Assembly (NCBI GenBank): GCA_023205875.1
Contig: CP060760.1
Coordinates: 496,001 to 560,000 of the forward strand
Origin: Chloropicon primus
Taxonomy: Eukaryota; Chlorophyta; Chloropicophyceae; Chloropicales; Chloropicaceae
DNA length: 64,000 bases
Reading direction: 5' to 3'
The notes under the pieces were generated by a model. The model did no database searches and was not told the origin of the DNA. It was given only the letters and a program-made list of their open reading frames with translations. A program made the translations under genes and the position numbers. Positions 7,088-26,648 of the stretch are shown piece by piece (position 1 is the stretch's first letter; each line of letters starts with the position of its first letter).

Positions 7088-7261
7088 GGCGGGTGGGGAG
7101 AGAGGCGGGGAGAAGGAGAGTGTGGGATGACGCGAGCGCGGCGGACGACGTGCGGTGCTCCCAAGAAAAAACCAAAAAAAACATGCATACGTGCTTACTA
7201 CAGCGAAATAAAAGCTTACTAGACGTTGGCGCTTCTCAGTGACGACGACGAAAAACAAAAC

Positions 7262-8722: not shown

Positions 8723-9709
8723 TCACGGTGATGTGGAGATGGGCCTCACGCTGTTGTAGTGCTCGCCCAGGCCGTAGGCGTGCAAGTGGTACGCGAGCCT
8801 CAAGGGGGCCCCCTCCTTGTCCTCCCCGATCTTCACCACCGGCTGGTCCGCAGAGTACACTTCGATGGCAACGTCGAGGGCCTGGCTGATGGCCTGCAGC
8901 TCCAAGTGCCCGCCTTTTCACCCACACAACAAGAACAAGAACAAGAACAGGAACGTCAAGTCAGTCGGTGCAGAACAGGACAACCCCCCTCCTCTCTCTC
9001 TCTCCCTGAGGCCAACCCGACTTCTTCTGCTTCTCCTCTCCCTCCAAGCCCCCCACTTACCCCACTCGGCGGTGGACTCCATTCGCTCGCAGTACTCGTC
9101 CAGTGGGGCTTCCAGGAAAGGCTCAAAGTCCTCCCTGTTGCCCCTGATGTGGTCGGCCGCCACCTTCCTCAAGCCGGAGTGATCGATGGGCTTGTGCTGG
9201 AAACCCAAGGCGCTGGTGCTCTGGAACGAGAGCTGGTCCTCCAGGGAGCGAAACATGCAGTTTCCGTCCGGGGGGATGTCGTGCAGAACGAAGTTCAAGT
9301 CCATCAGCCGCTCCTCGATCATCTTGGTCTCCCTCTCCTCCGGCGTCTCCCCTAGCTCTGCCCTCTCCAGGGCGATCCTGGCCTCCCTCTCCGCCTCCTT
9401 GGCAGCCTTGGCCTCCCTTCGCTTCTGAGCCCGCGTCGGTCCCTTCTTCTCCGCCACCTCTGGCTCCGGCGTCGACGATGGATCCTCCTTCGCCGATTCC
9501 TTTACCTCGCCCTCCGCCTCCCTCTCCTCGAAAGCACGCAGTTCCCCCTCGTGCTTTGCGGCGAGGTCCTGCTCGAGCTTCTTCGCCTCGTCTTTCCGTT
9601 TCTTTCCCATCTTCTTCACCTCCTTCTTCAGGAGCATCACCTCCCGCTTGTGACGCTGCACCATCTGCCCCTTCGTCTCCACCTTGTCCTTCCCTTCATC
9701 GCCGCTCAT
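8723..9709 (-). CDS. OTU-domain cysteine protease, OTUD6-like (2 exons)
   Basis: Predicted deubiquitinase of 279 aa. Exons on the minus strand are 9709-9061 and 8913-8723. The 147-nt intron has a GTAAGT donor and AAAAG acceptor, and joining in phase 1 restores EWGGHLELQA, a conserved OTUD6 block. Residues 1-135 are charged coiled coil (KREVMLLKKEVKKMGKKRKD and onward), typical of OTUD6 N-termini. The catalytic motif is PPDGNCMFRSL with D148 and C151. The catalytic histidine is near residue 268 in GEHYNSV. The start at 9709 is the first ATG in frame. Family members act on ubiquitin chains on translation and stress proteins; the role here is inferred. Confidence 0.88.
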
Positions 9710-9969
9710 CCTGCTCCTCTCCTCTCTCTCCTCTCCTCTCTGCTCTGCTCTCTGCTCTGTCTCTCTCTGCTGTCGATTCAAGCTGGTCGGATCAGAGGAG
9801 AAAGAGAAGGAGAAGAGAGGAGAGGGAGGAGAAGGTGGGTTGGATCCGCATTGGATGGCACCAGCACCTGCACCCTCTCTCCTTCTCTTTCCTTCTCTCT
9901 CTCTCTCTCTCTCTCTCTGCTGGGGGTGGTGGTGAGGCAAGCCGTGGACATCGATTGCGGCCTACATAC

Positions 9970-10012
<43 letters not shown>

Positions 10013-10342
10013 AGGGAGGTGGTGGTTTGGATCCATACCGGAGGGCACCGTCAACTGCTGTGGCCTTGTGCCTTATCTCACAATATATCAAATCGTTTAT
10101 TTCTATCCTAAAACTCTCGACCTTGCTCCAAAAAGGAACAGTGAGCGTACTCTCATCTTCAAAGACGGCCAAAGCGTGGTAACTCACGCTTCGGGTCTTG
10201 GTGCTACCTCCGCTTGCTCCCAAGCTAACCCGGCTTGCCCTCCCAACTCCTGCTCCATCGCGGTGGAAAGCGGCCACTGCGATATGATGCGCAACTGAGG
10301 AGAGGAAAGCCAGTAGGGAGCGGCGCTTCACGCTTCAGAACT
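9710..10342. repeat. Spacer with (CT)n and (AG)n tracts and an imperfect 180-bp repeat
   Basis: No gene is recognised between Cpn10 and OTUD6-like. Features seen are a (CT)n run at about 9894-9920, an (AG)n run at 9973-10006 and a diverged direct repeat. The repeat's GGTGG.TTGGATCC..A..GGA.GGCACC appears near 9835 and again near 10018. Confidence 0.6.
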
Positions 10343-10962
10343 TCAACCCACAAGAAGTCCGAGAAGCTCAGTGTCCCTGTAGAGCGTGAAATCCTTGTCG
10401 TCAACCTTCACTTGGGTGCCGCCATACTCCGGCAACAGCACGTTATCGCCTTCCTGCTCGACCGACACCACGACGAAGAAGAAAGTGAAGCCAACGTCAA
10501 GTGTTAGAGAACGACGAACGCAGAGACGAGACACAGGGCGGCGCGGTGTACCGGAGGAATGCGGTAAGAGGAGGAAACTCACCTTGACGCTCATAGGGAT
10601 GAGGTTCCCGTCAGGGGTCCTTGCACCTGGACCGACGGCAACGACCTTCCCTTCGTTGACCTACGCACACGATAGGCAAAACAAAAGCATGATCGAACGA
10701 ACGAACGAACGAACGAACGAACGACAGAAGCGAACGAGAGAGGCATCAGTACATCGAACCCGAGGCAAGGGGAAGGCCACATCTCGGGGGCTCCTCCCTC
10801 TCCCTCCACTTTCGCTCCACGCGCGTGGAGGTCTGCTGTCCTTACCTTGGACACAGCTGAGTCTGGCAGTATGACTCCGCCCACAGACTTTTGCATGGGA
10901 GCAACGCGCTCCACAAGGACCCTGTCCAACAAAGGAACCAACCGCTTCAAACCTCCGGACAT
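10343..10962 (-). CDS. Chaperonin 10 (GroES/Hsp10) (3 exons)
   Basis: Co-chaperonin cap for Cpn60, 101 aa. Minus-strand exons are 10962-10846, 10660-10583 and 10453-10343, and all junctions are phase 0 with GTAAG/GTGAG donors. The full family pattern is present: LVPLLDRVLVERV, the mobile loop GGVILPDSAVSK, VVAVGPGARTPDG and EGDNVLLPEYGGTQVKVDDK. The length is that of a single-domain mitochondrial Cpn10, not the double plastid Cpn20. There is no clear cleavable transit peptide, as is usual for mitochondrial Hsp10, so a mitochondrial location is likely. Intron 1 contains a (CGAA)n microsatellite. Confidence 0.95.
10692..10722. repeat. (CGAA)n tetranucleotide repeat in Cpn10 intron 1
   Basis: About seven tandem copies of CGAA lie between the Cpn10 exons 1 and 2. 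Confidence 0.85.
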
Positions 10963-10969
10963 GTTGACC

Positions 10970-11005
<36 letters not shown>

Positions 11006-11415
11006 TGCTGTCTCCGACTTCTTCTCCTCTGTCTGCCTCGCTCTCGCTCTTGTTCGTCCTCCGCAGCCGCAATCTTCCTGGACAAAGATCTCGCTGGCAG
11101 CTGGGGCCGGAGTTGCAGGGGAGGGACGATGGTGAGGGAGGGAGGGACAGGTGATGGAGGAGGGGGAGGGGGGAGGGGTTGGATGGGTCTCAGCATTCGA
11201 TTTTCGTCCAAGGATTTGCGCACCTTTCTTGGTTGCAAGGCTTCTTCGGTGGAAGGGGAGGAAGACATTGGAGGGGGGAGAGCGAGGACGGTAACGGTGA
11301 CGGGGCAAAGGTCTTGCGAGTGTAGGCTGCTGTGATCATTATTGGGTAGAAAATTGGGGGGTAAAACTTTACATACATACATACATAATATAATGTGCGT
11401 GGTGGAATACCACCG
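10963..11415. other. Spacer: Cpn10 upstream / ABCG-A downstream
   Basis: Both flanking genes are on the minus strand, so this holds the Cpn10 promoter and the ABCG-A 3' UTR. A (TG)n run occupies about 10974-11003 and a (CATA)n run 11370-11386. No coding signal is seen. Confidence 0.55.
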
Positions 11416-14400
11416 CTACTCCAACGCCTTCTTGTAGAAGAACAGAAAGCAGACCATCCTTTCGACGATGCCGCTGAGGTACAGGAACAGGACCGCCGTC
11501 CGCCAGTTGCTGGTTCTGAACGCATAGATGACGTCCATTTCAACTTTCTCGCCAATAAAGTAACTTGGGTTCGCCGCCTCCTCCTGGAGGGTCAGGGCCT
11601 CCGTGGCCCACCTGTTGTAGGAGGGGAGGATCATCCAGTACAAGAGGGGATTGGAAGCGTCCTGGAGCTCCTTGACTGTGGGTTTCACTCCATTGAGGAC
11701 CGCGCCGAACAGGAAAGTGATCGCAACGGAGAGAACGACCGCCGATCTCGGGTTAGTCACGCACGGCATGATCATCCCCAAACCGCTGCAGGACCACGCC
11801 GTGCCGAACGCGATCAGCAGAAAGTCCGCAAAGGTCTGGTTGTATCCCGTGATATAGAGCACGGGCAGCGTAAACACCACAGATCGGATCAGAAGGTCTA
11901 TCGCCGTGTTGTAGATGTTCAGCGTCGCAAAGATGGCCGTGGTACTGACGCCCTCGCTCACTTCCCTTTGTACCATCGGCAACTCTCTCGATATGAAGAG
12001 GGTGGCCCACAGCGAGGAGAGAACTCCGAGGAACATCATTCCAACCGTGTTCGCTTGAGTCACCCGGTACAGATTCAGAGACATGTTGATTCTGTTCACG
12101 AAAGAGATGGACACCCCGATGACAGCCATCGAGCCGAAGTCAAGAATCTTGAGCTCCAGCGTCCTCATCATTTTCAGCGGCTCGCGCTGGAGCAGGTACA
12201 GGCACTGCTTCGGGAAACCTGCTGTGGACCGGAAGGCAAACTTGCGCTGCCGGCGGGCCGTGAGCATCTGCTTGAGGTGAGAGTTCGCATCAAAGCTGCC
12301 AAGCAGAGACTTCTGGCTGCCAGAAGATCTCATCCTGCTGGCAAGGTTGTTCATCTCGATGGAGCACTCCAATCCCTCCTCGTCAACGCAAACTCCCTCC
12401 TTGTGGGGAAACAGGCCGAGCAGGGCCGTGGAGAACTCGCGAGTCCAGTAGTTCTTCGTCCACCTCATCAGGAAATCCTTGCGCACGATCCTCCCGTCCC
12501 CGTCCACGTCAAAGTGACGGACGATTTGGTTGGCCTCCTCCAGGGTGCACTGCTGACCCATGGACTGGAGGAACTCCAGCATGGTGGTGCTGTCGATGTA
12601 CCCGTCCTGCTGGGCGTCCAGCTGGTCGAATTGCTCCCCGAGGGTCCCGAGCCACCGAGGCGTGGGGACCATGGATTGCGTCCGTTTCACCCTGCTGCTC
12701 TCCTTGCCGCCCTCAAGATCCACGTGCTTGCACGCCTTGACCCCAAGATCAAAGTCCCTGCCCGAAAAGTTCCGGAACGACTGGGACCGGGAACTGATCA
12801 TCGAGTCGTCCTTTGACCTGCCCGTGTCCAGCGCGACGTCCTCAAAGTCCATTCCTTTCGAATCGCAGAACGAGCTCCGCCTGAAGCGATCGTCTGCTCG
12901 CACCTCGTCGTTCCAGAGGGCCACAAGGTCCATCGGAGAGAACCGCTCGTGACCCGGAAGATCGATCAGGCCGGCAATCACGTCGAGCATGAAGTCCGCA
13001 GGGTTCTCGTTCTCGTGGAGCTTGAACCCAATGTCCCGAAAGTAATCCAAGGCGCCGGACGTGGGACCGCTGTACACCACGTAACCCCCCCTCATGAACA
13101 AATGAAGGGCATCAAAGAGCAAAAACGTAGAGTAACGAGGCTGGTGGAGAGAAGCAACAACGGTCACACCAAGATCGCTCATCTTGTTCAAGCTGCTCAT
13201 CACGTCGTTGGCGGCCACGGCATCGAGGCCAGACGTGGGCTCATCAAGGATCAGGAGACTCGGGCAAGCCACGAGCTCGAGGCCGATGCTCACCCTCCTC
13301 GCCTCGCCTCCCGAGATGGACCCCGCGGGGGACAGGGGGTTGCCGACCTTGGCATTCTGGATGTGATTCAGACCCAGAACGGTGATGGTGTCCTGGATGA
13401 TCTCTTTCTTGGTCTGCGCGGAGAGGGAGGGCCCGAGCCTCATCCTGGCGCTGTAAGCGATGTTCTCGTTGACCGTTAGGATCTCGTGCACCACGTTGTC
13501 CTGGGCCACGTACCCAACCCCAAGCTGCACGGCCGTCTCCCTGGCTCTGAGCTTCGTCAAGGATTTGCACATGCTGCCGCCCCCGCAGCACCCGGACCTC
13601 CCCCCGGTGCTGCTCAACAAGTTCACCTTGATGGGGTGATTCTTGAACTCAAACCTGATCTCTCCCCGCGGTTGGGAGTTCACCGAGAACTTGCCCACCA
13701 AGGATTTGAGGAAGGTCGTCTTTCCCGCGCCGCTGGATCCCAGGATCACGTTCAGGGTCGACGCCCGGAACAGCAAATTCACCCCCCTGAGAACCAGCTT
13801 GCTCTTGCCGTGGGACTTGACCTCCACGCTCAAGTTGTCGACCACGATGTCCACCAGCCTGATGTTCTCGGAGAACCCCTTGAGGTTCGAGGCGTAAGAC
13901 ATTTGGTCCGAGCCCAGGCCGAGCTTGACGCCGATGGCCTTGAGGAGCGTGGACTGCTTTTCGGCCTTCCTGGCCCTCCTGAGCACCGACCTCTGAGACA
14001 CTTTGATCCAGATGGCGAGAGCGAGCAGGAGGAGCAGGAAGCACCCGAAGAGCGCCCCCAGCCCGATCACGAGGTAAAGGGAGATGCTCGGCTTGCCGGA
14101 GCCTTCGGGGCAATTGGTCATCATCGGGCACTCCTTTGGCTCCTTGCTCTGGACCTCGCAGTAGTGCCCCTCCGGGCAGGCGACAGCGATCGACGCGGTG
14201 GGGCAGTACCACCCGGCTGGACACAGGCCGAAGGGGCTGGTGGAGGCCGGCGGGCAGTAGTTGCCCTCCAAGGTGATGGCCCCGGCAATTGTGATTCCCT
14301 CGCAACGGAACGGCTGGTGGCTTCCGAGGGGGCAAAAGTACCCCGAGGGGCACACGTACGCCGTGGTCGTGTTGGGGCAATAGTACCCGACGGGACAGAG

Positions 14401-15147
14401 GTTGAGCCTGGTGCTCCCCAGAGCCAGGCCCCCGTCGTGGAGGGTGCCGCTGGGGCACAAGCTCCCCTTCTCGCAAGGCTCGCACCTGCCGAGGGCGCCC
14501 CTCGACGCCAGCGCGAGCTCCAGCGAGGGCATGCACTGGTACCCCGCCTTGCACCTCCCGCTGCACGACTCTGTCGTCATGGACAGGCCCGGCGTGAAGT
14601 CCTCGTCCCCCAAGTCGCTCTCCGCGAAGACTCCCCCGATGAAGGACTGAACGAAGCCCCAATCGGGCTGGGGGTCGAGGCTCACCGCCATCTCCGCCCG
14701 CTGGAAGCTTCCCGTGGGGATGACCACCAGGTCGTCCAGCGTGCAGAACTCCGGATTCCCCTCGGGCTCGACCTCGGCCGACGTGCAGTTGGGCTCCACC
14801 ACCGTGTTGCTCGGGTACCACATCGTCCAACTCGGCTCCCCCAGAACGCTCTCCCCGCTCAAGCGCTCGAACATTGGGTTCGGGAGCTCGGCCCTCCGCC
14901 TCTTCTCCACCTCCCTCGCGAGCTCCTCGCCGCCCATCGCGCTGCAGAAGACAGGCACCGAAATGTTCTTCAACCCGCCGCCCTGCCCCTCACCCTCTCC
15001 CTCCTGCTGGCACAAGGCGTTCAGCACGTCCGTCTCGAGCTTCTCGTCCAGCGCGATCATTGGGACGGCGTCGTCCTGCCCCAAGCACGAGCCCAGGGAG
15101 CACAGCAGGAGCAGCACCGCGGCCACCCACGACCGTAACGGCTCCAT
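11416..15147 (-). CDS. ABCG half-transporter with Cys-rich ectodomain and EF-hands, copy A
   Basis: Predicted ATP-driven exporter of 1243 aa with no intron. The ATG at 15147 opens a signal peptide (MEPLRSWVAAVLLLLCSLGS). Residues about 105-350 are Cys-rich with repeated CPxGYxCP units. A membrane segment follows at 355-380. The ABCG ATPase has Walker A GSSGAGKT (470-477), signature SISGGE (610-615), Walker B LLILDEP (631-637) and ASLHQP. An EF-hand pair lies at about 844-855 (DAQQDGYIDSTT, no acid at position 12) and 880-891 (DVDGDGRIVRKD, canonical). A six-helix ABC2-type membrane domain starts near residue 990. The order resembles plant ABCG24/28-type proteins apart from the EF-hands. It needs dimerisation; the substrate is unknown. 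This copy has its own C-terminal membrane domain sequence. Confidence 0.93.
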   Translation of the reverse strand: MEPLRSWVAAVLLLLCSLGSCLGQDDAVPMIALDEKLETDVLNALCQQEGEGEGQGGGLKNISVPVFCSAMGGEELAREVEKRRRAELPNPMFERLSGESVLGEPSWTMWYPSNTVVEPNCTSAEVEPEGNPEFCTLDDLVVIPTGSFQRAEMAVSLDPQPDWGFVQSFIGGVFAESDLGDEDFTPGLSMTTESCSGRCKAGYQCMPSLELALASRGALGRCEPCEKGSLCPSGTLHDGGLALGSTRLNLCPVGYYCPNTTTAYVCPSGYFCPLGSHQPFRCEGITIAGAITLEGNYCPPASTSPFGLCPAGWYCPTASIAVACPEGHYCEVQSKEPKECPMMTNCPEGSGKPSISLYLVIGLGALFGCFLLLLLALAIWIKVSQRSVLRRARKAEKQSTLLKAIGVKLGLGSDQMSYASNLKGFSENIRLVDIVVDNLSVEVKSHGKSKLVLRGVNLLFRASTLNVILGSSGAGKTTFLKSLVGKFSVNSQPRGEIRFEFKNHPIKVNLLSSTGGRSGCCGGGSMCKSLTKLRARETAVQLGVGYVAQDNVVHEILTVNENIAYSARMRLGPSLSAQTKKEIIQDTITVLGLNHIQNAKVGNPLSPAGSISGGEARRVSIGLELVACPSLLILDEPTSGLDAVAANDVMSSLNKMSDLGVTVVASLHQPRYSTFLLFDALHLFMRGGYVVYSGPTSGALDYFRDIGFKLHENENPADFMLDVIAGLIDLPGHERFSPMDLVALWNDEVRADDRFRRSSFCDSKGMDFEDVALDTGRSKDDSMISSRSQSFRNFSGRDFDLGVKACKHVDLEGGKESSRVKRTQSMVPTPRWLGTLGEQFDQLDAQQDGYIDSTTMLEFLQSMGQQCTLEEANQIVRHFDVDGDGRIVRKDFLMRWTKNYWTREFSTALLGLFPHKEGVCVDEEGLECSIEMNNLASRMRSSGSQKSLLGSFDANSHLKQMLTARRQRKFAFRSTAGFPKQCLYLLQREPLKMMRTLELKILDFGSMAVIGVSISFVNRINMSLNLYRVTQANTVGMMFLGVLSSLWATLFISRELPMVQREVSEGVSTTAIFATLNIYNTAIDLLIRSVVFTLPVLYITGYNQTFADFLLIAFGTAWSCSGLGMIMPCVTNPRSAVVLSVAITFLFGAVLNGVKPTVKELQDASNPLLYWMILPSYNRWATEALTLQEEAANPSYFIGEKVEMDVIYAFRTSNWRTAVLFLYLSGIVERMVCFLFFYKKALE

Positions 15148-15870
15148 CCCCCCCGGCTGCGCCCGTCGCCCTCGTCCGCAATTCACGGGGCCATGTGTCC
15201 GCTTCGTTGAGGAACAAACAAACAAACAAAAACGCGAACGAACCGAGAAGTTCTCCCCTCTTCCTCTCCCCCTCTCTCCCTCTCTCTCTTGGGGACGTCG
15301 CCTAAACCCAGCGCACGCACCCCTGCCTCGAGAGAGAACTCAACCGACCCTTCGGAGGCTAGTAAGGGGCCAAGAGCTCGTGCAAGTTCCCCGAAACGCG
15401 AGAGACGTGCCTATCGAAAGCCCCTCCCGCGTTTTGCGCCGTCGTTCCTCGTCCCTCTTCCGCTCAAACCCTTCTCGTAACGCTCGTAACCGTAACGCCT
15501 CTCTGACGCCAGAACGGAACGAGCAACTTTGTGGTCCGTTCGGTTTTAGCGCGAACTCTTTTTGAAAATTGTAGCTTTTGTGCTAAGGTCTCTCGTCTTG
15601 TGATTGGGGGGGGGAACCGGATGAAAAACAAAGATGAAGAAGATGATGCCTTTTTTGGAGACCAAGACCAAGGGGAAGGGGAAGGAAGGCCCTCTCTTCT
15701 CTCTCTTCTCTCTCTTCTCTCTTCTCTCTCTCTTCTCTCTTGTCGGCAGGACATCCTTTGCTCGACAAAGTAAAGTTTTGTGTATATATAGGATCATAAT
15801 ACATAAGCTATTGCTTGAATTCGTTTGCGCAGCAAGCAACTCTCGTCTTGCCTCTCCCCCCCACACACTC
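15148..15870. repeat. Spacer A-B, duplicated copy of spacer B-C
   Basis: Almost the whole spacer matches 19600-20341, including (CAAA)n, CT-rich runs and a TTCTCTC run. One patch (about 15520-15585 against 19972-20030) differs strongly. It holds the promoter of copy A and the 3' UTR of copy B. Confidence 0.85.
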
Positions 15871-18800
15871 CTACTCCAACGCCTTCTTGTAGAAGAAGAA
15901 GAAGCAAATCAGGCGCAACAGGATGCCGCTGAGGTACAAGAACAGGACCGCCGTCAGCCAGTTGCTCGGGTCGTATCCGAAAGAGTTCAACTCCAACTTC
16001 TCGGCAAAGGAATAGTCCGTGTTCGCCGCCTCCTCCTGGATGGTCAGGGCCTCCGTGGCCCACCTGTTGTAGGAGGGGAGGACCATCCAGTACAAGAGGG
16101 GATTGGAAGCGTCCTGGAGCTCCTTGATGCTCGGCCCCACTCCATTGAGGACCGCGCCGAACAGGAAAGTGATCGCAACGGAGAGAACGACCGCCGATCT
16201 CGGGTTGGTCACGCACGGCATGATCATCCCCAAACCGCTGCAGGACCACGCCGTGCCGAACGCGATCAGCAGAAAGTCCGCAAAGGTCTGGTTGTACCCC
16301 GAGATGTAAAAGAACGGCAGTGTGTAGGCCAGGCACCTCACCAGGATGTCCACCGCCGTGTTGTAGATGTTCAGCGTCGCAAAGATGGCTCCGGCGTGGA
16401 CGCCCTCGCTCACTTCCCTTTGTACCATCGGCAACTCTCTCGATATGAAGAGGGTGGCCCACAGCGAGGAGAGAACTCCCACAAACATCATTCCAACCGT
16501 GTTCGCCTGCTTCACCGCCTCAAGGTTCGAGCCCAGGGCGGTCCGGTTCACGAATGCGTAGGACACCCCGATGACAGCCATCGAGCCGAAGTCAAGAATC
16601 TTGAGCTCCAGCGTCCTCATCATTTTCAGCGGCTCGCGCTGGAGCAGGTACAGGCACTGCTTCGGGAAACCTGCTGTGGACCGGAAGGCAAACTTGCGCT
16701 GCCGGCGGGCCGTGAGCATCTGCTTGAGGTGAGAGCTCGCATCAAAGCTGCCAAGCAGAGACTTCTGGCTGCCAGAAGATCTCATCCTACTAGCAAGGTT
16801 GTTCATCTCGATGGAGCACTCCAATCCCTCCTCGTCAACGCAAACTCCCTCCTTGTGGGGAAACAGGCCGAGCAGGGCCGTGGAGAACTCGCGAGTCCAG
16901 TAGTTCTTCGTCCACCTCATCAGGAAATCCTTGCGCACGATCCTCCCGTCCCCGTCCACGTCAAAGTGACGGACGATTTGGTTGGCCTCCTCCAGGGTGC
17001 ACTGCTGACCCATGGACTGGAGGAACTCCAGCATGGTGGTGCTGTCGATGTACCCGTCCTGCTGGGCGTCCAGCTGGTCGAATTGCTCCCCGAGGGTCCC
17101 GAGCCACCGAGGCGTGGGGACCATGGATTGCGTCCGTTTCACCCTGCTGCTCTCCTTGCCGCCCTCAAGATCCACGTGCTTGCACGCCTTGACCCCAAGA
17201 TCAAAGTCCCTGCCCGAAAAGTTCCGGAACGACTGGGACCGGGAACTGATCATCGAGTCGTCCTTTGACCTGCCCGTGTCCAGCGCGACGTCCTCAAAGT
17301 CCATTCCTTTCGAATCGCAGAACGAGCTCCGCCCGAAGCGATCGTCTGCTCGCACCTCGTCGTTCCAGAGGGCCACAAGGTCCATCGGAGAGAACTCATC
17401 GTGACCCGGAAGATCGATCAGGCCGGCAATCACGTCGAGCATGAAGTCCGCAGGGTTCTCGTTCTCGTGGAGCTTGAACCCAATGTCCCGAAAGTAATCC
17501 AAGGCGCCGGACGTGGGACCGCTGTACACCACGTAACCCCCCCTCATGAACAAATGAAGGGCATCAAAGAGCAAAAACGTAGAGTAACGAGGCTGGTGGA
17601 GAGAAGCAACAACGGTCACACCAAGATCGCTCATCTTGTTCAAGCTGCTCATCACGTCGTTGGCGGCCACGGCATCGAGGCCAGACGTGGGCTCATCAAG
17701 GATCAGGAGACTCGGGCAAGCCACGAGCTCGAGGCCGATGCTCACCCTCCTCGCCTCGCCTCCCGAGATGGACCCCGCGGGGGACAGGGGGTTGCCGACC
17801 TTGGCATTCTGGATGTGATTCAGACCCAGAACGGTGATGGTGTCCTGGATGATCTCTTTCTTGGTCTGCGCGGAGAGGGAGGGCCCGAGCCTCATCCTGG
17901 CGCTGTAAGCGATGTTCTCGTTGACCGTTAGGATCTCGTGCACCACGTTGTCCTGGGCCACGTACCCAACCCCAAGCTGCACGGCCGTCTCCCTGGCTCT
18001 GAGCTTCGTCAAGGATTTGCACATGCTGCCGCCCCCGCAGCACCCGGACCTCCCCCCGGTGCTGCTCAACAAGTTCACCTTGATGGGGTGATTCTTGAAC
18101 TCAAACCTGATCTCTCCCCGCGGTTGGGAGTTCACCGAGAACTTGCCCACCAAGGATTTGAGGAAGGTCGTCTTTCCCGCGCCGCTGGATCCCAGGATCA
18201 CGTTCAGGGTCGACGCCCGGAACAGCAAATTCACCCCCCTGAGAACCAGCTTGCTCTTGCCGTGGGACTTGACCTCCACGCTCAAGTTGTCGACCACGAT
18301 GTCCACCAGCCTGATGTTCTCGGAGAACCCCTTGAGGTTCGAGGCGTAAGACATTTGGTCCGAGCCCAGGCCGAGCTTGACGCCGATGGCCTTGAGGAGC
18401 GTGGACTGCTTTTCGGCCTTCCTGGCCCTCCTGAGCACCGACCTCTGAGACACTTTGATCCAGATGGCGAGAGCGAGCAGGAGGAGCAGGAAGCACCCGA
18501 AGAGCGCCCCCAGCCCGATCACGAGGTAAAGGGAGATGCTCGGCTTGCCGGAGCCTTCGGGGCAATTGGTCATCATCGGGCACTCCTTTGGCTCCTTGCT
18601 CTGGACCTCGCAGTAGTGCCCCTCCGGGCAGGCGACAGCGATCGACGCGGTGGGGCAGTACCACCCGGCTGGACACAGGCCGAAGGGGCTGGTGGAGGCC
18701 GGCGGGCAGTAGTTGCCCTCCAAGGTGATGGCCCCGGCAATTGTGATTCCCTCGCAACGGAACGGCTGGTGGCTTCCGAGGGGGCAAAAGTACCCCGAGG

Positions 18801-19599
18801 GGCACACGTACGCCGTGGTCGTGTTGGGGCAATAGTACCCGACGGGACAGAGGTTGAGCCTGGTGCTCCCCAGAGCCAGGCCCCCGTCGTGGAGGGTGCC
18901 GCTGGGGCACAAGCTCCCCTTCTCGCAAGGCTCGCACCTGCCGAGGGCGCCCCTCGACGCCAGCGCGAGCTCCAGCGAGGGCATGCACTGGTACCCCGCC
19001 TTGCACCTCCCGCTGCACGACTCTGTCGTCATGGACAGGCCCGGCGTGAAGTCCTCGTCCCCCAAGTCGCTCTCCGCGAAGACTCCCCCGATGAAGGACT
19101 GAACGAAGCCCCAATCGGGCTGGGGGTCGAGGCTCACCGCCATCTCCGCCCGCTGGAAGCTTCCCGTGGGGATGACCACCAGGTCGTCCAGCGTGCAGAA
19201 CTCCGGATTCCCCTCGGGCTCGACCTCGGCCGACGTGCAGTTGGGCTCCACCACCGTGTTGCTCGGGTACCACATCGTCCAACTCGGCTCCCCCAGAATG
19301 CTCTTGCCGCTCAAGCGCTCGAACATTGGGTTCGGGAGCTCGGCCCTCCGCCTCTTCTCCACCTCCCTCGCGAGCTCCTCGCCGCCCATCGCGCTGCAGA
19401 AGACAGGCACCGAAATGTTCTTCGACCCGCCGCCCTGCCCCTCACCCTCTCCCTCCTGCTGGCACAAGGCGTTCAGCACGTCCGTCTCGAGCTTCTTGTC
19501 CAGCGCGATCATTGGGACGGCGTCGTCCTGCCCCAAGCACGAGCCCAGGGAGCACAGCAGAAGCAGCACCGCGGCCACCCACGACCGTAACGGCTCCAT
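15871..19599 (-). CDS. ABCG half-transporter with EF-hands, copy B (hybrid)
   Basis: 1242 aa, same architecture as copy A. Signal peptide and ectodomain are nearly identical to copy A (for example MIALDKKLE for MIALDEKLE, and GKSILGEPSW for GESVLGEPSW). The membrane-domain end is nearly identical to copy C, not A: VSYAFVNR, NLEAVKQANT, HAGAIFATL, GPSIKELQ, ILLRLICFFFFYKKALE. The ATPase and EF-hand core is almost the same in all three genes. Private changes include HDEFSP for HERFSP and FGRSSF for FRRSSF. It reads as an intact gene. The N-A plus C-C structure fits birth by unequal crossing-over. The product is probably functional, with membrane-domain specificity like C. Confidence 0.93.
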   Translation of the reverse strand: MEPLRSWVAAVLLLLCSLGSCLGQDDAVPMIALDKKLETDVLNALCQQEGEGEGQGGGSKNISVPVFCSAMGGEELAREVEKRRRAELPNPMFERLSGKSILGEPSWTMWYPSNTVVEPNCTSAEVEPEGNPEFCTLDDLVVIPTGSFQRAEMAVSLDPQPDWGFVQSFIGGVFAESDLGDEDFTPGLSMTTESCSGRCKAGYQCMPSLELALASRGALGRCEPCEKGSLCPSGTLHDGGLALGSTRLNLCPVGYYCPNTTTAYVCPSGYFCPLGSHQPFRCEGITIAGAITLEGNYCPPASTSPFGLCPAGWYCPTASIAVACPEGHYCEVQSKEPKECPMMTNCPEGSGKPSISLYLVIGLGALFGCFLLLLLALAIWIKVSQRSVLRRARKAEKQSTLLKAIGVKLGLGSDQMSYASNLKGFSENIRLVDIVVDNLSVEVKSHGKSKLVLRGVNLLFRASTLNVILGSSGAGKTTFLKSLVGKFSVNSQPRGEIRFEFKNHPIKVNLLSSTGGRSGCCGGGSMCKSLTKLRARETAVQLGVGYVAQDNVVHEILTVNENIAYSARMRLGPSLSAQTKKEIIQDTITVLGLNHIQNAKVGNPLSPAGSISGGEARRVSIGLELVACPSLLILDEPTSGLDAVAANDVMSSLNKMSDLGVTVVASLHQPRYSTFLLFDALHLFMRGGYVVYSGPTSGALDYFRDIGFKLHENENPADFMLDVIAGLIDLPGHDEFSPMDLVALWNDEVRADDRFGRSSFCDSKGMDFEDVALDTGRSKDDSMISSRSQSFRNFSGRDFDLGVKACKHVDLEGGKESSRVKRTQSMVPTPRWLGTLGEQFDQLDAQQDGYIDSTTMLEFLQSMGQQCTLEEANQIVRHFDVDGDGRIVRKDFLMRWTKNYWTREFSTALLGLFPHKEGVCVDEEGLECSIEMNNLASRMRSSGSQKSLLGSFDASSHLKQMLTARRQRKFAFRSTAGFPKQCLYLLQREPLKMMRTLELKILDFGSMAVIGVSYAFVNRTALGSNLEAVKQANTVGMMFVGVLSSLWATLFISRELPMVQREVSEGVHAGAIFATLNIYNTAVDILVRCLAYTLPFFYISGYNQTFADFLLIAFGTAWSCSGLGMIMPCVTNPRSAVVLSVAITFLFGAVLNGVGPSIKELQDASNPLLYWMVLPSYNRWATEALTIQEEAANTDYSFAEKLELNSFGYDPSNWLTAVLFLYLSGILLRLICFFFFYKKALE

Positions 19600-20341
19600 C
19601 CCCCCCGGCTGCGCCCGTCGCCCTCGTCCGCAATTCACGGGGCCATGTGTCCGCTTCGTTGAGGAACAAACAAACAAACAAAAACGCGAACGAACCGAGA
19701 AGTTCTCCCCTCTTCCTCTCCCCCTCTCTCCCTCTCTCTCTTGGGGACGTCGCCTAAACCCAGCGCACGCACCCCTGCCTCGAGAGAGAACTCAACCGAC
19801 CCTTCGGAGGCTAGTAAGGGGCCAAGAGCTCGTGCAAGTTCCCCGAAACGCGAGAGACGTGCCTATCGAAAGCCCCTCCCGCGTTTTGCGCCGTCGTTCC
19901 TCGTCCCTCTTCCGCTCAAACCCTTCTCGTAACGCTCGTAACCGTAACGCCTCTCTGACGCCGGAACGGAACAAGCAAGAACCAGAACCTTCGTTGTCCT
20001 CCCGGTCTTAGCGCGAGACGTGCTGTGCTAAGGTCTCTCGTCTTGTGATTGGGGGGGGGCGAACCGGATGAAAAACAAAGATGAAGAAGATGGATGAAAA
20101 ACAAAGATGAAGAAGATGATGCCTTTTTTGGAGACCAAGACCAAGGGGAAGGGGAAGGAAGGCCCTCTCTTCTCTCTTCTCTCTCTTCTCTCTTCTCTCT
20201 CTCTTCTCTCTTGTCGGCAGGACATCCTTTGCTCGACAAAGTAAAGTTTTGTGTATATATAGGATCATAATACATAAGTTATTGTTTGAATTCGTTTGCG
20301 CAGCAAGCAACTCTCGTCTTGCCTCTCCCCCACACACACTC
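19600..20341. repeat. Spacer B-C, duplicated copy of spacer A-B
   Basis: Near-identical to 15148-15870. It differs by a diverged patch near 19972-20030 and by a 26-bp tandem duplication (GATGAAAAACAAAGATGAAG unit) at about 20067-20120 that is single in the other copy. Confidence 0.85.
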
Positions 20342-23300
20342 CTACTCCAACGCCTTCTTGTAGAAGAAGAAGAAGCAAATCAGGCGCAACAGGATGCCGC
20401 TGAGGTACAAGAACAGGACCGCCGTCAGCCAGTTGCTCGGGTCGTATCCGAAAGAGTTCAACTCCAACTTCTCGGCAAAGGAATAGTCCGTGTTCGCCGC
20501 CTCCTCCTGGATGGTCAGGGCCTCCGTGGCCCACCTGTTGTAGGAGGGGAGGACCATCCAGTACAAGAGGGGATTGGAAGCGTCCTGGAGCTCCTTGATG
20601 CTCGGCCCCACTCCATTGAGGACCGCGCCGAACAGGAAAGTGATCGCAACGGAGAGAACGACCGCCGATCTCGGGTTGGTCACGCACGGCATGATCATCC
20701 CCAAACCGCTGCAGGACCACGCCGTGCCGAACGCGATCAGCAGAAAGTCCGCAAAGGTCTGGTTGTACCCCGAGATGTAAAAGAACGGCAGTGTGTAGGC
20801 CAGGCACCTCACCAGGATGTCCACCGCCGTGTTGTAGATGTTCAGCGTCGCAAAGATGGCTCCGGCGTGGACGCCCTCGCTCACTTCCCTTTGTACCATC
20901 GGCAACTCTCTCGATATGAAGAGGGTGGCCCACAGCGAGGAGAGAACTCCCACAAACATCATTCCAACCGTGTTCGCCTGCTTCACCGCCTCAAGGTTCG
21001 AGCCCAGGACGGACCGGTTCACGAATGCGTAGGACACCCCGATGACAGCCATCGAGCCGAAGTCAAGAATCTTGAGCTCCAGCGTCCTCATCATTTTCAG
21101 CGGCTCGCGCTGGAGCAGGTACAGGCACTGCTTCGGGAAACCTGCTGTGGACCGGAAGGCAAACTTGCGCTGCCGGCGGGCCGTGAGCATCTGCTTGAGG
21201 TGAGAGTTCGCATCAAAGCTGCCAAGCAGAGACTTCTGGCTGCCAGAAGATCTCATCCTGCTGGCAAGGTTGTTCATCTCGATGGAGCACTCCAATCCCT
21301 CCTCGTCAACGCAAACTCCCTCCTTGTGGGGAAACAGGCCGAGCAGGGCCGTGGAGAACTCGCGAGTCCAGTAGTTCTTCGTCCACCTCATCAGGAAATC
21401 CTTGCGCATGATCCTCCCGTCCCCGTCCACGTCAAAGTGACGGACGATTTGGTTGGCCTCCTCCAGGGTGCACTGCTGACCCATGGACTGGAGGAACTCC
21501 AGCATGGTGGTGCTGTCGATGTACCCGTCCTGCTGGGCGTCCAGCTGGTCGAATTGCTCCCCGAGGGTCCCGAGCCACCGAGGCGTGGGGACCACGGATT
21601 GCGTCCGTTTCACCCTGCTGCTCTCCTTGCCGCCCTCAAGATCCACGTGCTCGCACGCCTTGACCCCAAGATCAAAGTCCCTGCCCGAAAAGTTCCGGAA
21701 CGACTGGGACCGGGAACTGATCATCGAGTCGTCCTTTGACCTGCCCGTGTCCAGCGCGACGTCCTCAAAGTCCATTCCTTTCGAATCGCAGAACGAGCTC
21801 CGCCTGAAGCGATCGTCTGCTCGCACCTCGTCGTTCCAGAGGGCCACAAGGTCCATCGGAGAGAACCGCTCGTGACCCGGAAGATCGATCAGGCCGGCAA
21901 TCACGTCGAGCATGAAGTCCGCAGGGTTCTCGTTCTCGTGGAGCTTGAACCCAATGTCCCGAAAGTAATCCAAGGCGCCGGACGTGGGACCGCTGTACAC
22001 CACGTAACCCCCCCTCATGAACAAATGAAGGGCATCAAAGAGCAAAAACGTAGAGTAACGAGGCTGGTGGAGAGAAGCAACAACGGTCACACCAAGATCG
22101 CTCATCTTGTTCAAGCTGCTCATCACGTCGTTGGCGGCCACGGCATCGAGGCCAGACGTGGGCTCATCAAGGATCAGGAGACTCGGGCAAGCCACGAGCT
22201 CGAGGCCGATGCTCACCCTCCTCGCCTCGCCTCCCGAGATGGACCCCGCGGGGGACAGGGGGTTGCCGACCTTGGCATTCTGGATGTGATTCAGACCCAG
22301 AACGGTGATGGTGTCCTGGATGATCTCTTTCTTGGTCTGCGCGGAGAGGGAGGGCCCGAGCCTCATCCTGGCGCTGTAAGCGATGTTCTCGTTGACCGTT
22401 AGGATCTCGTGCACCACGTTGTCCTGGGCCACGTACCCAACCCCAAGCTGCACGGCCGTCTCCCTGGCTCTGAGCTTCGTCAAGGATTTGCACATGCTGC
22501 CGCCCCCGCAGCACCCGGACCTCCCCCCGGTGCTGCTCAACAAGTTCACCTTGATGGGGTGATTCTTGAACTCAAACCTGATCTCTCCCCGCGGTTGGGA
22601 GTTCACCGAGAACTTGCCCACCAAGGATTTGAGGAAGGTCGTCTTTCCCGCGCCGCTGGATCCCAGGATCACGTTCAGGGTCGACGCCCGGAACAGCAAA
22701 TTCACCCCCCTGAGAACCAGCTTGCTCTTGCCGTGGGACTTGACCTCCACGCTCAAGTTGTCGACCACGATGTCCACCAGCCTGATGTTCTCGGAGAACC
22801 CCTTGAGGTTCGAGGCGTAAGACATTTGGTCCGAGCCCAGGCCGAGCTTGACGCCGATGGCCTTGAGGAGCGTGGACTGCTTTTCGGCCTTCCTGGCCCT
22901 CCTGAGCACCGACCTCTGAGACACTTTGATCCAGACGGTGAGGACTAGCAGGAGGAGCAGGAAGCACCCGAAGAGCGCCCCCAGCCCGATCACGAGGTAA
23001 AGGGAGATGCCCTGCTTGGCGGTTCCCACTGGACAGCTCGACAGCATGCCGCACTCCTTTGGCTCCTTGCTCTGGACCTCGCAGTAGTGCCCCTCCGGGC
23101 AGGCGACAGCGATCGACGCGGTGGGGCAGTACCACCCGGCTGGGCAGAAGTTCAGCGGGGTGCTCGAGGCCGGCGGGCAGTAGTTGCCCTCGATCGAGAT
23201 GCCACTCATCGAGATGTTGCTGCAGCTGAACGGCTGGTGGCTTCCGAGGGGGCAAAAGTACCCCGAAGGGCACTCGTACGCCGTGGTCGTGTTGGGGCAA

Positions 23301-24064
23301 AAGTACCCGACGGGACAGAGGTTGAGTCTGGCGCTCCCCAGAGCCAGGCCCCCGTCGTGGAGGGTGCCGCTGGGGCACAAGCTCCCCTTCTCGCAAGGCT
23401 CGCACCTGCCGAGAGTTCCTTGGGACGCCAGCGCGAGCTCCAGCGAGGGCATGCACTGGTACCCCGCCTTGCACCTCCCGCTGCACGACTCTGTCGTCAT
23501 GGACAGGCCCGGCGTGAAGTCCTCGTTCCCCAAGTCGCTCTCCGCGAAGATTCCCCCGATGAAGGACAGGTCTGCGCCGTGGGCGGCACGGGGGTCGTTT
23601 CTCCACTTTCGCTGTCTTTGGAAGCTTCCCGTGGGGATGACCACCAGGTCGTCCAGCGTGCAGAACTCCGGATTCTCCTTGGGCTCCCTCTGCGGGAATC
23701 GGCAGCCCTTCTCCACCACCCAGTTTTTCGGGTACCACTGCTTGCGCGTGTCGTCGGGCAGGGTCACCCTGAGTGTCGCCTCGGAAGTCACCTTTGAATA
23801 GTTCGTATTCTTGCCTCCCATCGCGCTGCAGAACAACGGCACGACTCGTTTCCCGCTCTCGCTTTCGCTCTCCCCAACACCCTCCTCCGCGCACAGCGCG
23901 TTCAGGATGTCCGTCTCGAGCTTCTCGTCCAGCTCCGCGTACGTCACCCTGTCCCCGGGCACGAGCTGCGAGCGCCCCAGGACTGCCAGGGACGAGAGGC
24001 AGGACAGGAGCAGCAGCAGCACAGCCGCCGCCGAGGCGCGGCGTTCGGACACCGTCGTCGCCAT
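20342..24064 (-). CDS. ABCG half-transporter with EF-hands, copy C
   Basis: 1240 aa from the ATG at 24064, which opens another signal peptide (MATTVSERRASAAAVLLLLL). An in-frame extension upstream is low-complexity and not used. The ectodomain differs from A and B in blocks (FPQREPKENPEF; SNISMSGISIEGNYCPP; GTAKQGISLYL), while the Cys spacing is kept. From about 22930 leftward the ATPase, EF-hand and linker DNA is almost identical to A and B. Small private changes are CEHVDL, TQSVVP and DGRIMRKD. The C-terminal membrane domain matches B. It is the first gene of the array in transcription order and is head-to-head with the GPP-GPDH gene. Confidence 0.93.
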   Translation of the reverse strand: MATTVSERRASAAAVLLLLLSCLSSLAVLGRSQLVPGDRVTYAELDEKLETDILNALCAEEGVGESESESGKRVVPLFCSAMGGKNTNYSKVTSEATLRVTLPDDTRKQWYPKNWVVEKGCRFPQREPKENPEFCTLDDLVVIPTGSFQRQRKWRNDPRAAHGADLSFIGGIFAESDLGNEDFTPGLSMTTESCSGRCKAGYQCMPSLELALASQGTLGRCEPCEKGSLCPSGTLHDGGLALGSARLNLCPVGYFCPNTTTAYECPSGYFCPLGSHQPFSCSNISMSGISIEGNYCPPASSTPLNFCPAGWYCPTASIAVACPEGHYCEVQSKEPKECGMLSSCPVGTAKQGISLYLVIGLGALFGCFLLLLLVLTVWIKVSQRSVLRRARKAEKQSTLLKAIGVKLGLGSDQMSYASNLKGFSENIRLVDIVVDNLSVEVKSHGKSKLVLRGVNLLFRASTLNVILGSSGAGKTTFLKSLVGKFSVNSQPRGEIRFEFKNHPIKVNLLSSTGGRSGCCGGGSMCKSLTKLRARETAVQLGVGYVAQDNVVHEILTVNENIAYSARMRLGPSLSAQTKKEIIQDTITVLGLNHIQNAKVGNPLSPAGSISGGEARRVSIGLELVACPSLLILDEPTSGLDAVAANDVMSSLNKMSDLGVTVVASLHQPRYSTFLLFDALHLFMRGGYVVYSGPTSGALDYFRDIGFKLHENENPADFMLDVIAGLIDLPGHERFSPMDLVALWNDEVRADDRFRRSSFCDSKGMDFEDVALDTGRSKDDSMISSRSQSFRNFSGRDFDLGVKACEHVDLEGGKESSRVKRTQSVVPTPRWLGTLGEQFDQLDAQQDGYIDSTTMLEFLQSMGQQCTLEEANQIVRHFDVDGDGRIMRKDFLMRWTKNYWTREFSTALLGLFPHKEGVCVDEEGLECSIEMNNLASRMRSSGSQKSLLGSFDANSHLKQMLTARRQRKFAFRSTAGFPKQCLYLLQREPLKMMRTLELKILDFGSMAVIGVSYAFVNRSVLGSNLEAVKQANTVGMMFVGVLSSLWATLFISRELPMVQREVSEGVHAGAIFATLNIYNTAVDILVRCLAYTLPFFYISGYNQTFADFLLIAFGTAWSCSGLGMIMPCVTNPRSAVVLSVAITFLFGAVLNGVGPSIKELQDASNPLLYWMVLPSYNRWATEALTIQEEAANTDYSFAEKLELNSFGYDPSNWLTAVLFLYLSGILLRLICFFFFYKKALE

Positions 24065-24174
24065 GCCGCGAGTGAGCGGACGACCGAGAGAATGGCTTTG
24101 CTCCCTTCCTTCTTCTCTGGGGCAGCGATCAATGGCGCAGAGAAGAACACGAGTAACGCACGTAACGCACACAC

Positions 24175-24208
<34 letters not shown>

Positions 24209-24659
24209 TTTCAGTTCAGAGCTCTCCGACACCCCCCCGGGAAAGACTTCCTGGCGCGATGCTCGCCATCGCAGGCCTCTTCCCGCCAAACGCCGCGCCC
24301 CACCTTTTCCCTCCCGTCTTGTTGGGAGAAACCAAGAAGGTTGTTCGCGCCCTCGTTTCCCTTCACCAGGTACGGGACGACGAAGAAAAGTAAAAGTAAA
24401 AAAGAAGAAAAAAGAAAAAAAAAGCGCCACTCGAAACGCTCTCCTCTTCCTCTCTTGCCCCTCCGCCTCCGCCTCCGTTGTCGTCTTCTTCTCGTGTGTT
24501 TTTCTCTCGAGACGACGACGACCCCAAGGTGGGGCTCCTCGTTCGTCGATTCGATGGCCATCATTCTTGGTTCGCACGAAGTGTACGAGTCGTATTCGAG
24601 GTGTGAAAAAACGTAACGGCCGAGCTTGCCCCTCTCAGGCATTGAGGAAGGGGAAGGGT
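24065..24659. other. Bidirectional promoter region, ABCG-C / GPP-GPDH
   Basis: 595 bp between two divergent start codons. It has a (GA)n run at 24179-24206 and an A-rich stretch at 24385-24425. Parts are open in frame with both neighbours, but composition is low complexity and no domain is seen. Confidence 0.55.
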
Positions 24660-26588
24660 ATGTTCTGTCGTTTGGTTTGCGGGAGGAAAGGGGATGAGAT
24701 GAGAGTGTTGGGTGTTGGGCACCGTAAGTATCGCCAAAAGGGCCTGGCTGTCGTCGGGGGATCACGCAGATCTACCCGTGGTCGTTGGCGTCGTCGCTGC
24801 GATGCCTCGGCGGGGGATGTTCCTCCACCTCCACCTCCTGCTCCTTCCTCTTCCTCTCGAGCTCGAGTGCTGGACACTTGGAGGAGGGCTCAGGCCGTCT
24901 GCTTCGACGTCGACTGCACGGTGTGCAAGGACGATTCCCTCGACGCGCTGGCGGGGTTCCTGGGGAAGAGTGAGGAGGTCGAGGCATGGACGACGAAGGC
25001 GATGGACGGGTCGACGAGCCTCCTCAAGTCCCTGGAGGAGAGGATGAGGATCCTGGACCCGAGCCCGAGCGACGTGAGGGCGTACCTGGAGACCGCGCCA
25101 GCTCGGGAGAGGCTGTGCGAGGGCGTCGAGGAGCTTGTGGGGGCCCTGCACGAGAGGGGCGTCGCCGTGTACCTGATCTCCGGGGGGTTTAGGGAGATGG
25201 CCATCCCGGTGGCCAGGGCCCTTGGGGTCGAGTCGAAGAACGTGTACGCCAACCGGATGCTGTTCACGTCCGACGACGAGACGGGCCTCCCGACAAAGTT
25301 CGCGGGCTTCGACAGGAGCGAGCCGACCTGCAGGCAGGGCGGCAAGCCGCAGGTGATCAGGGAGCTCCGGAAGATCCACCCCTACGAGACCGTGGTTATG
25401 GTCGGGGACGGGATCACAGACTTGGAGGCCGCCTCCGAGGCGGACGGCGCCGATTGCTTCATAGGCTTCGCCGGCGTGGTGCTGCGGCCGGAGGTCCAGA
25501 AGGGCGCCGACCTCGTTGTCTTTGACTTCGGCACCCTGACCAGGGAGCTGAAGAGGCACAAGGTTTGCTTCTTGGGGTCCGGAGCCTGGGCCTGCGCGGC
25601 TGCCAAGCTGGCCTCGGAGAACACCTCCAGGCTCGACACCTTCGAGACCACGATCGAGATGTGGGTCTACGAGGAGACCTACGAGGGCCGGCCGCTGACG
25701 GAGGCAATCAACGAGACTCACGTGAACCCAAAGTACTTGCCGGGGGTCTCCCTGGGGGGGAACGTCCACGCGGAGCCCGACCTTGAAACTGCCGTCAAGG
25801 GATCCGACCTCGTGGTGTTCTGTGTTCCACACGAATTCGCTCTCGGCCTGTGCAACAAGCTGGAAGGCCTCCTAGACAAGGACGCGGCCGTCATCAGCCT
25901 TACCAAAGGCATGCGAATTCGACCAGAGGGGCCACAGCTAATTAGCGAGATGCTGAGGAAAAAGCTCGGGCGGGACTGCTCGGTGCTGATGGGGGCGAAC
26001 ATCGCATCCGAGATTGGCCAAGGCCAGCTCAGCGAGGCAACCATAGGGTACGCCCGGGCCGACAACGGCAAGATCTTCCGCGATCTGTTCCAGACGCCCT
26101 CCTTCATAGTCACCCTTGTCCCGGATGTGGAAGGGGCGGAGATGGCGGGGACGCTCAAGAACATCGTTGCAGTCGGCGCCGGCTTTTCTGACGGCCTCGG
26201 GTACGGGAGCAACACGAAAGCGGCTATCATCCGGCAAGGCTTGTCCGAGATCAAAGAACTGTCCACCAGAATGTTTCCCTCCGTACGGCCGGAGACTTTC
26301 CTAGAGTCCTGCGGGGTCGCCGATCTCGTGGCGTCTTGTTACGGAGGACGAAACAGGAAAGTGGCCGAAACATTTGCCAAGGAAAGGGGGGAAAGGACGA
26401 TGGAGGAGCTCGCGGACGACCTCCTGGGGGGTCAGCGGCTGCAGGGCGCCCTCACCGCCGAGGAGGTGTACTCCGTGCTCGAGGTCAAGGGTTGGGTTGC
26501 CGATTTCCCTCTCTTCTCCACCGTGCACGGCATCATCGTTGGACAACTCCCGGTGGAATCCATCACAAGCTTCATGGGTTCTGGTTAA
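24660..26588 (+). CDS. Bifunctional glycerol-3-phosphate phosphatase / NAD-dependent G3P dehydrogenase
   Basis: The predicted enzyme converts dihydroxyacetone phosphate to G3P and then to glycerol in one chain of 642 aa. The start is the ATG at 24660; the first 75 residues are Arg/Ser/Pro-rich, like a plastid transit peptide. Residues about 78-295 are a SerB-like HAD phosphatase: FDVDCTVCKDDSLD with nucleophile D83 and general acid D85, LISGG, and VGDGITDLEA (248-257). Residues about 300-642 are GPDH: nucleotide loop GSGAWACAAA (306-315), SLTKGM, GANIASEI, GTLKNIVAVGAG with K500, and GYGSNTKAAI. The fusion is known from Chlamydomonas and Dunaliella, where it supports glycerol production under osmotic stress. 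The HAD half could be mistaken for phosphoserine phosphatase. Confidence 0.92.
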   Translation: MFCRLVCGRKGDEMRVLGVGHRKYRQKGLAVVGGSRRSTRGRWRRRCDASAGDVPPPPPPAPSSSSRARVLDTWRRAQAVCFDVDCTVCKDDSLDALAGFLGKSEEVEAWTTKAMDGSTSLLKSLEERMRILDPSPSDVRAYLETAPARERLCEGVEELVGALHERGVAVYLISGGFREMAIPVARALGVESKNVYANRMLFTSDDETGLPTKFAGFDRSEPTCRQGGKPQVIRELRKIHPYETVVMVGDGITDLEAASEADGADCFIGFAGVVLRPEVQKGADLVVFDFGTLTRELKRHKVCFLGSGAWACAAAKLASENTSRLDTFETTIEMWVYEETYEGRPLTEAINETHVNPKYLPGVSLGGNVHAEPDLETAVKGSDLVVFCVPHEFALGLCNKLEGLLDKDAAVISLTKGMRIRPEGPQLISEMLRKKLGRDCSVLMGANIASEIGQGQLSEATIGYARADNGKIFRDLFQTPSFIVTLVPDVEGAEMAGTLKNIVAVGAGFSDGLGYGSNTKAAIIRQGLSEIKELSTRMFPSVRPETFLESCGVADLVASCYGGRNRKVAETFAKERGERTMEELADDLLGGQRLQGALTAEEVYSVLEVKGWVADFPLFSTVHGIIVGQLPVESITSFMGSG

Positions 26589-26648
26589 GAGGCCGAAAAA
26601 GGGAACCTTTAAAGCATATAAAACCATTTTTTTTACATTACACGTCGT

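Follow-up and report, generated by a model that had tools for sequence, protein, structure and literature searches.

Three tandem ABCG-type transporter genes of Chloropicon primus share an almost identical cytosolic core between strongly diverged outer parts, and the middle gene of the array is a hybrid of its two neighbours. The account that we favor, at a probability of roughly 0.8, is that a gene duplication was followed by gene conversion of the core, that unequal crossing-over then produced the hybrid, and that the three resulting transporters would run on a shared engine.

Results

The locus and its genes

The window, i.e. the whole 64,000-nucleotide stretch of DNA that was analyzed, is C7:496001-560000, on chromosome 7 of strain RCC138, whose genome comprises 17,584,162 bp in 20 contigs. 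According to the part of the genome report covered (PMC12301720), C. primus is a marine green picoalga, the RCC138 assembly was built from Nanopore reads and then polished with Illumina reads by Pilon, heterozygosity amounts to 0.20 sites/kb, and a second strain, CCMP1205, shows an average nucleotide identity (ANI) of 99.91% with chromosomes reported as collinear. The three genes, all intronless and on the minus strand, are transcribed in the order C, B, A; by Pfam, each encodes one ABC ATPase (nucleotide-binding domain, NBD), an EF-hand pair and one ABC2-type membrane domain (TMD), which is the layout of an ABCG half transporter. Their features, in positions of the window, are as follows.

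11416..15147, minus strand: gene A, ABCG half transporter of 1243 aa, apparently the derived paralogue (ORF; Pfam ABC_tran, EF-hand_7, ABC2_membrane; branch longer than that of C in divergent blocks)
15871..19599, minus strand: gene B, hybrid of 1242 aa, 5' part A-type and 3' part C-type (site patterns 227/233 and 111/113)
20342..24064, minus strand: gene C, ABCG half transporter of 1240 aa, nearest to the type seen in related proteins (related proteins; P0001 2 residues different)
12109..14012, minus strand: core of A, apparently homogenized, with cytosolic linker, NBD, EF-hand pair and TMD start (3 differences from C per 1904 nt)
16561..18464, minus strand: corresponding core of B (7 private differences)
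21032..22935, minus strand: corresponding core of C (site comparison)
16560..16938, minus strand: interval of the A-to-C switch (putative crossover) in B (B equals A at A807, A826 and A888 and is C-like from A1014 on)
15148..15870, minus strand: B-A spacer, 723 nt, apparent duplicate of the C-B spacer (spacer alignment)
19600..20341, minus strand: C-B spacer, 742 nt (spacer alignment)
15511..15618, counterpart 19963-20091, no strand: hypervariable spacer block (spacer alignment)
12475..12618, minus strand: EF-hand pair of A, loops at residues 844-855 and 880-891 (Pfam; loop alignment)
16927..17070, minus strand: EF-hand pair of B (Pfam; loop alignment)
21398..21541, minus strand: EF-hand pair of C (Pfam; loop alignment)

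The ATPase motifs of A are intact (GSSGAGKT at residue 470, SISGGE at 610, ILDEPTSGLD at 633, SLHQP at 666), and we take them to be Walker A, signature, Walker B/D-loop and H-loop, respectively. When C was modeled from residue 381 onward (pLDDT 71.2; model used for helix limits and fold matching only), the top Foldseek matches in the PDB were ABCG2 chains. The ectodomain contains 23-24 Cys among the first 355 residues; its model is poor (mean pLDDT 51.8), and the sole part of it that was used is the well-scored helix C 355-379.

A homogenized core between diverged flanks

The core extends from the inner end of the pre-ATPase helix to the first membrane-domain helix, thereby covering the cytosolic part, and its limits in A agree within a few bases with those of the initial annotation (A 12105-14010, C 21030-22930). 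Over this span A and C differ at only 3 of 1904 nucleotide sites, all of them amino-acid changing. Counting degenerate codons of identical amino acid, silent differences number 0/606 in the core, 29/249 before it and 18/169 after it (Fisher p 1e-19; 47/418 for both outer sides pooled), so that the divergence between A and C is not uniform along the genes, as the initial annotation had held. Likewise, the core has a dS of 0, compared with 0.38 and 0.35 for the parts to either side of it, these unfiltered figures being the fair ones, since "divergent-only" values of 0.80 and 1.20 result when identical runs of at least 36 nt are dropped first. Silent identity within a bounded tract flanked by diverged sequence is the pattern of interlocus gene conversion, and because of this silent identity the results support homogenization of the core of A and C by conversion, in one direction or the other.

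Strong purifying selection on the engine alone would fit the conservation of the ATPase between species, but the silent sites rule out its pure form and leave it barely credible, as the two ATPases of another gene, on C10, differ silently at 36/95 codons for identical residues and the core protein is just 59-75% identical, by segment, to the related protein P0003. GC-biased conversion was considered too and gained no support: GC3 of the core is not raised, at 0.83 vs 0.91 in the ectodomain and 0.79 in the TMD (values for A).

Beyond the core, the identical runs that A and C share are shorter, the longest measuring 103 nt; they point to additional exchanges on a smaller scale and hence to more than one event. 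Run permutation over all codons is significant on both sides (left 0/5000, right P 0.001), as is the clustering of silent sites (5e-5 left, 0.021 right), and the longest silent zero run falls short of significance (P 0.056 left, 0.127 right). The proposal that conversion of the engine is ongoing is borne out as to silent core identity and not as to "ongoing", since one tract of ~1.9 kb could suffice. Two points weigh against the favored account, namely that Illumina polishing could itself have homogenized near-identical cores, and that a central tract between diverged flanks could also arise neutrally.

The hybrid gene and its probable origin

Before the core, the three genes group as AB|C at 227 of 233 variable CDS sites; after it, they group as BC|A at 111 of 113. 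B is therefore not equidistant from its neighbors, and it combines the signal peptide and ectodomain of A with the membrane domain of C, as had been claimed from the sequence alone. The longest runs of shared polymorphic sites are 133 for A-B and 103 for B-C, against permutation maxima of 32 and 13 (10,000 permutations each). In its core B carries A's state at residues 807, 826 and 888, and the switch is placed between A-residues 888 and 1014, within about 380 bp. The two spacers match at 685 of the 704 positions aligned, in keeping with their description as near-identical, except that 71 of the 76 differing columns (gaps included) lie inside one 150-column stretch, the hypervariable block; in a self-comparison of positions 9001-28000, neither the 3' flank of A nor the 5' flank of C matched a spacer at E 1e-5.

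A single-switch hybrid together with duplicated intergenic DNA is the expected product of an unequal crossover, and if A of one chromatid recombines with C of the other chromatid, the outcome is exactly the array C, A5'-C3', A that the initial annotation had predicted. From the observed site patterns and spacers we infer, with good support, that B arose by unequal crossing-over in a C-A pair. Alternatively, B could be a third paralogue of long standing in which conversion replaced one side with A sequence and the other with C sequence, and conversion has clearly been at work in the cluster; this we consider improbable, as both conversions would have to cross the spacers and meet at one switch, whereas an unequal crossover gives gene, spacers and order in one step.

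B differs from both parents at 15 private CDS sites (6+7+2), about 4 per kb or about 0.4%. These changes are clustered (734-735, 98-101, 936-937, 1020-1021) and could be multi-base mutations or polishing errors. That B is a mis-assembled allele is unlikely, its ~4 private differences per kb lying far above the 0.20 heterozygous sites per kb. An artefact of assembly or polishing affecting the whole array, be it collapsed haplotypes or a core homogenized by short reads, would draw on the Illumina/Pilon polishing of RCC138, on a core that exceeds short-read length and on the clustering just mentioned; still, we rate it slightly below even the old-paralogue reading, given that the private substitutions of B and the spacer indels are well above heterozygosity, that the core protein of P0001, presumably from the other strain, is the same as that of C, and that the chromosomes of the two strains are reported as collinear.

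P0001, a C. primus protein that differs from protein C at 2 of 1240 residues, both outside the core, is probably the C orthologue of CCMP1205. Since the distance of B from its parents (about 0.4%) exceeds the difference between strains, B should be older than the split of RCC138 and CCMP1205; the five members of the A/B protein cluster P0002 only hint that B is present in CCMP1205. At residue 1155, G in B and C of RCC138 and R in P0001, P0003 and P0004 hints at a B-C exchange after the strain split, though it may be ordinary polymorphism. Residue 826 is M in A and B and V in C and in five of six outgroups (a gap in the sixth, P0007), and M826 looks derived. If the crossover passed this derived state on from A to B, a few A-C core differences pre-existed that event, and homogenization of the core would have come before the crossover.

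Age, direction and selection

In a tree of the divergent blocks, with the six closest proteins of other sources as outgroups, A and C split jointly from all six (support 100% for the combined blocks, 100% left, 87% right); such a split at 100% support places the duplication within the lineage of C. primus, to the extent of the sampling. The branch of A is about 2.5 times that of C, and the outgroups favor the C state over the A state both in the ectodomain (39 vs 24 of 92 differing sites) and in the TMD (30 vs 13 of 49). As A has evolved faster and the relatives are more C-like, the two do not form a symmetric pair: C looks like the canonical gene and A like a derived one.

The A-C dN/dS ratios never exceed 1, being 0.56 and 0.40 for the sequence flanking the core on either side and 0.50 and 0.27 for blocks picked as divergent. 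With positions labeled by hand from the helices of the C model, A and C differ at 21% of nucleotides outside and at 2% inside (cytosol plus inner helix halves). Within the TMD, the outer parts differ more, but not beyond chance, since 52 of 234 circular shifts reach the contrast. The claim that divergence falls in the ectodomain and the membrane loops therefore stands in part, for the ectodomain and not for the loops, and selection is not demonstrated. A neutral version that overlaps with our main account would see in the core merely the region where tracts stayed alignable, and in the diverged ends failing homology rather than function; it is a real, if minority, possibility, favored by dN/dS below 1 and by TMD blocks that do not track topology significantly, and opposed by the C2 and C4 loci, where homogenization has once more affected the ATPase, which in C2 sits near the gene 5' end and in C4 inside one gene.

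An EF-hand insert

EF loop 2 reads DxDGDGxIxRxD/E, a canonical Ca2+ loop, in 12 of 12 aligned EF-bearing sequences; in A, B and C, loop 1 does not end in an acidic residue. A search with the EF region alone returned eight clusters, all of them ABCG proteins with EF-hands by their listed domains, and the insert also occurs in P0009 and P0010, making 10 of 120 among the protein matches listed; no EF-hand match was found in the paralogue C11:193591. The presence of the insert points to calcium control of an ABCG pump. The insert is apparently new, as titles and abstract beginnings in our literature search showed no fusion of ABCG and EF-hand. ABCG24/ABCG28-like half transporters, the best named plant matches, mostly have 1,000-1,100 residues and are without EF-hand among their listed Pfam domains. 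The ectodomain search returned no named plant ABCG among the 85 proteins listed; from outside the close family, the only ABC proteins in that list were two unnamed ones.

Other ABCG loci of the genome

A genome search listed 38 matches, with 37 of 63 candidates scored, and DNA was read for part of those loci. Among the matches listed, ABCG-type ATPases lie within 10 kb of each other in at least four sets, at C7, C2, C11 and C4, and all four combine silently homogenized ATPase DNA with diverged transmembrane DNA. At C2, with three genes, one of them inverted, the homogenized ATPase lies near the gene 5' end, and silent differences are 11/270, 15/251 and 25/244 in the ATPase and 62/180, 47/148 and 49/133 in the TMD. 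At C11 there are three ATPases; 6 of 686 nt distinguish the first from the third, and the TMDs that follow these two are 36% identical in protein; units 1 and 2 of this locus are 99.8% identical across 2608 nt, as if a crossover from ATPase to ATPase had duplicated ATPase and TMD together. At C4 a single full-size gene contains two ATPases with 0/150 silent differences, vs 60/106 downstream.

Across the part of the loci that was read, 18 ATPase segments found by motif show strong DNA identity within linked sets only. The C10 gene with two ATPases, which we classed as another type because of its weak match and its signature motif, shows no homogenization (36/95, as above), and the ABCG gene C7:492113, which lies 15 kb from A on the opposite strand, has no ATPase DNA match to the array; both are evidence against homogenization as a general rule.

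Discussion

The history that we envisage would begin with the duplication, in the C. primus lineage, of an ABCG half-transporter gene that encoded a Cys-rich ectodomain at the N terminus and, after the ATPase and ahead of the membrane domain, an EF-hand pair. C would have stayed near the ancestral type as A diverged in the ectodomain and parts of the membrane domain, and gene conversion would then have rendered the DNA of the whole cytosolic engine near-identical in the two. This 1.9-kb core may have provided the homology at which misaligned copies crossed over unequally, and the product B would have received upstream DNA and ectodomain from A, and membrane domain and 3' flank from C. ABCG half transporters function as dimers, and on such general grounds a shared engine may let subunits with unlike ectodomains and membrane parts pair and be powered by one common machinery, perhaps under regulation by Ca2+.

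A close precedent is the ABC11-ABC1 pair, whose original study, reportedly that of Lamping et al. (2017), is said to name pleiotropic drug resistance transporters in its title. These are tandem ABC drug pumps of Pichia kudriavzevii (Candida krusei) with recurrent conversion, which come in one-, two- or three-gene arrays; as in C. primus, conversion keeps the tandem pumps alike, and ectopic recombination there shrinks the array to a single chimeric gene or enlarges it to three genes (part of PMC6053246 covered). Unlike that pair, which is 98% identical in DNA, A and C have diverged strongly beyond the core, such that B joins truly different halves, and our case concerns a green alga, half transporters and an EF-hand insert. 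The copepod Tigriopus offers divergence islands in the conversion-homogenized, linked, intronless paralogues GOT1p1 and GOT1p2, with chimeric haplotypes, but these encode aspartate transaminase rather than a transporter, and a three-gene array is not described in the part of the source covered (PMC3728101). Tandem ABCG clusters of Tetrahymena, for which concerted evolution was suggested, are similar too, although "gene conversion" appears 0 times in the text of PMC2984421 and the portion covered shows no domain-restricted pattern; bird ABCG2 paralogues gave no clear conversion in the part of PMC7362505 covered. Our literature search, confined to titles and abstract beginnings and mostly to journals other than subscription ones, yielded no ATPase-restricted homogenization across several ABCG loci of one genome, and the recurrence and domain restriction are apparently new.

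Taken over the genome, we tentatively suggest, at less than even odds, that linked ABCG genes have their ATPase DNA homogenized time and again as ectodomain and membrane parts diverge, and that the shared segment would act as a recombination joint for the making of new pumps, be it a hybrid (C7), an extra ATPase-membrane unit within a locus of several units (C11) or exchanged ATPase halves of a full-size pump (C4). If this is true, the alga would possess a standing route for the domain shuffling of transporters. Genomes of strains from two Chloropicon species, announced in the part of the genome report covered (PMC12301720), make the order of conversion, crossover and divergence directly testable, and the array of C. 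primus provides a readable case of chimeric transporter building in an alga, with a shared engine, exchangeable outer parts and a breakpoint confined to ~380 bp.

ABCG loci on other contigs

ABCG genes of Chloropicon primus RCC138 also lie on three further contigs, C2, C4 and C11, from which the DNA stretches L011-L014 are taken:
C2:1613338-1626349 (L012 and L013), three ABCG half transporters
C4, L014 reverse complement, 2655-7472, full-size ABCG, 1606 aa ORF
C11, L011:1357-7994, ABCG locus

In the full-size gene, a stretch of about 140 codons beginning at Walker A has identical DNA in the two ATPase domains, and in the gene's membrane parts silent changes are saturated. The C2 trio, one member of which is inverted and lies about 6.5 kb distant, exhibits silent homogenisation of the ATPase in mosaic form. 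The C11 locus comprises an N-terminal region, three near-identical ATPases and three membrane domains, of which two are near-identical and the third is different; its reading frame shifts near L011:5390, owing to an intron, an error in sequencing or a genuine break.

Neighbouring genes

Pfam matches identify three neighbouring genes in the window:
8918-9940, minus, OTU-like protease
28521-30614, plus, nicastrin-like protein
56247-62186, minus, large NopRA1-domain protein

In this picoalga, 46496-49315 on the plus strand also gives a strong match in Pfam to CCDC39, which is a protein of cilia.

Spacers and EF-hand pair

Two features of the tandem array itself (genes A, B and C) are:
15511-15618 and 19963-20091, hypervariable block inside the otherwise duplicated spacers
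12475-12618 (A), 16927-17070 (B) and 21398-21541 (C), EF-hand pair that separates the ATPase from the membrane domain

The hypervariable block carries indels of 10, 17 and 28 nt. Among the matches listed, an EF-hand pair so placed occurs in 10 protein clusters, and V/M888, one of the three differences between the A and C cores, falls within the second EF loop.
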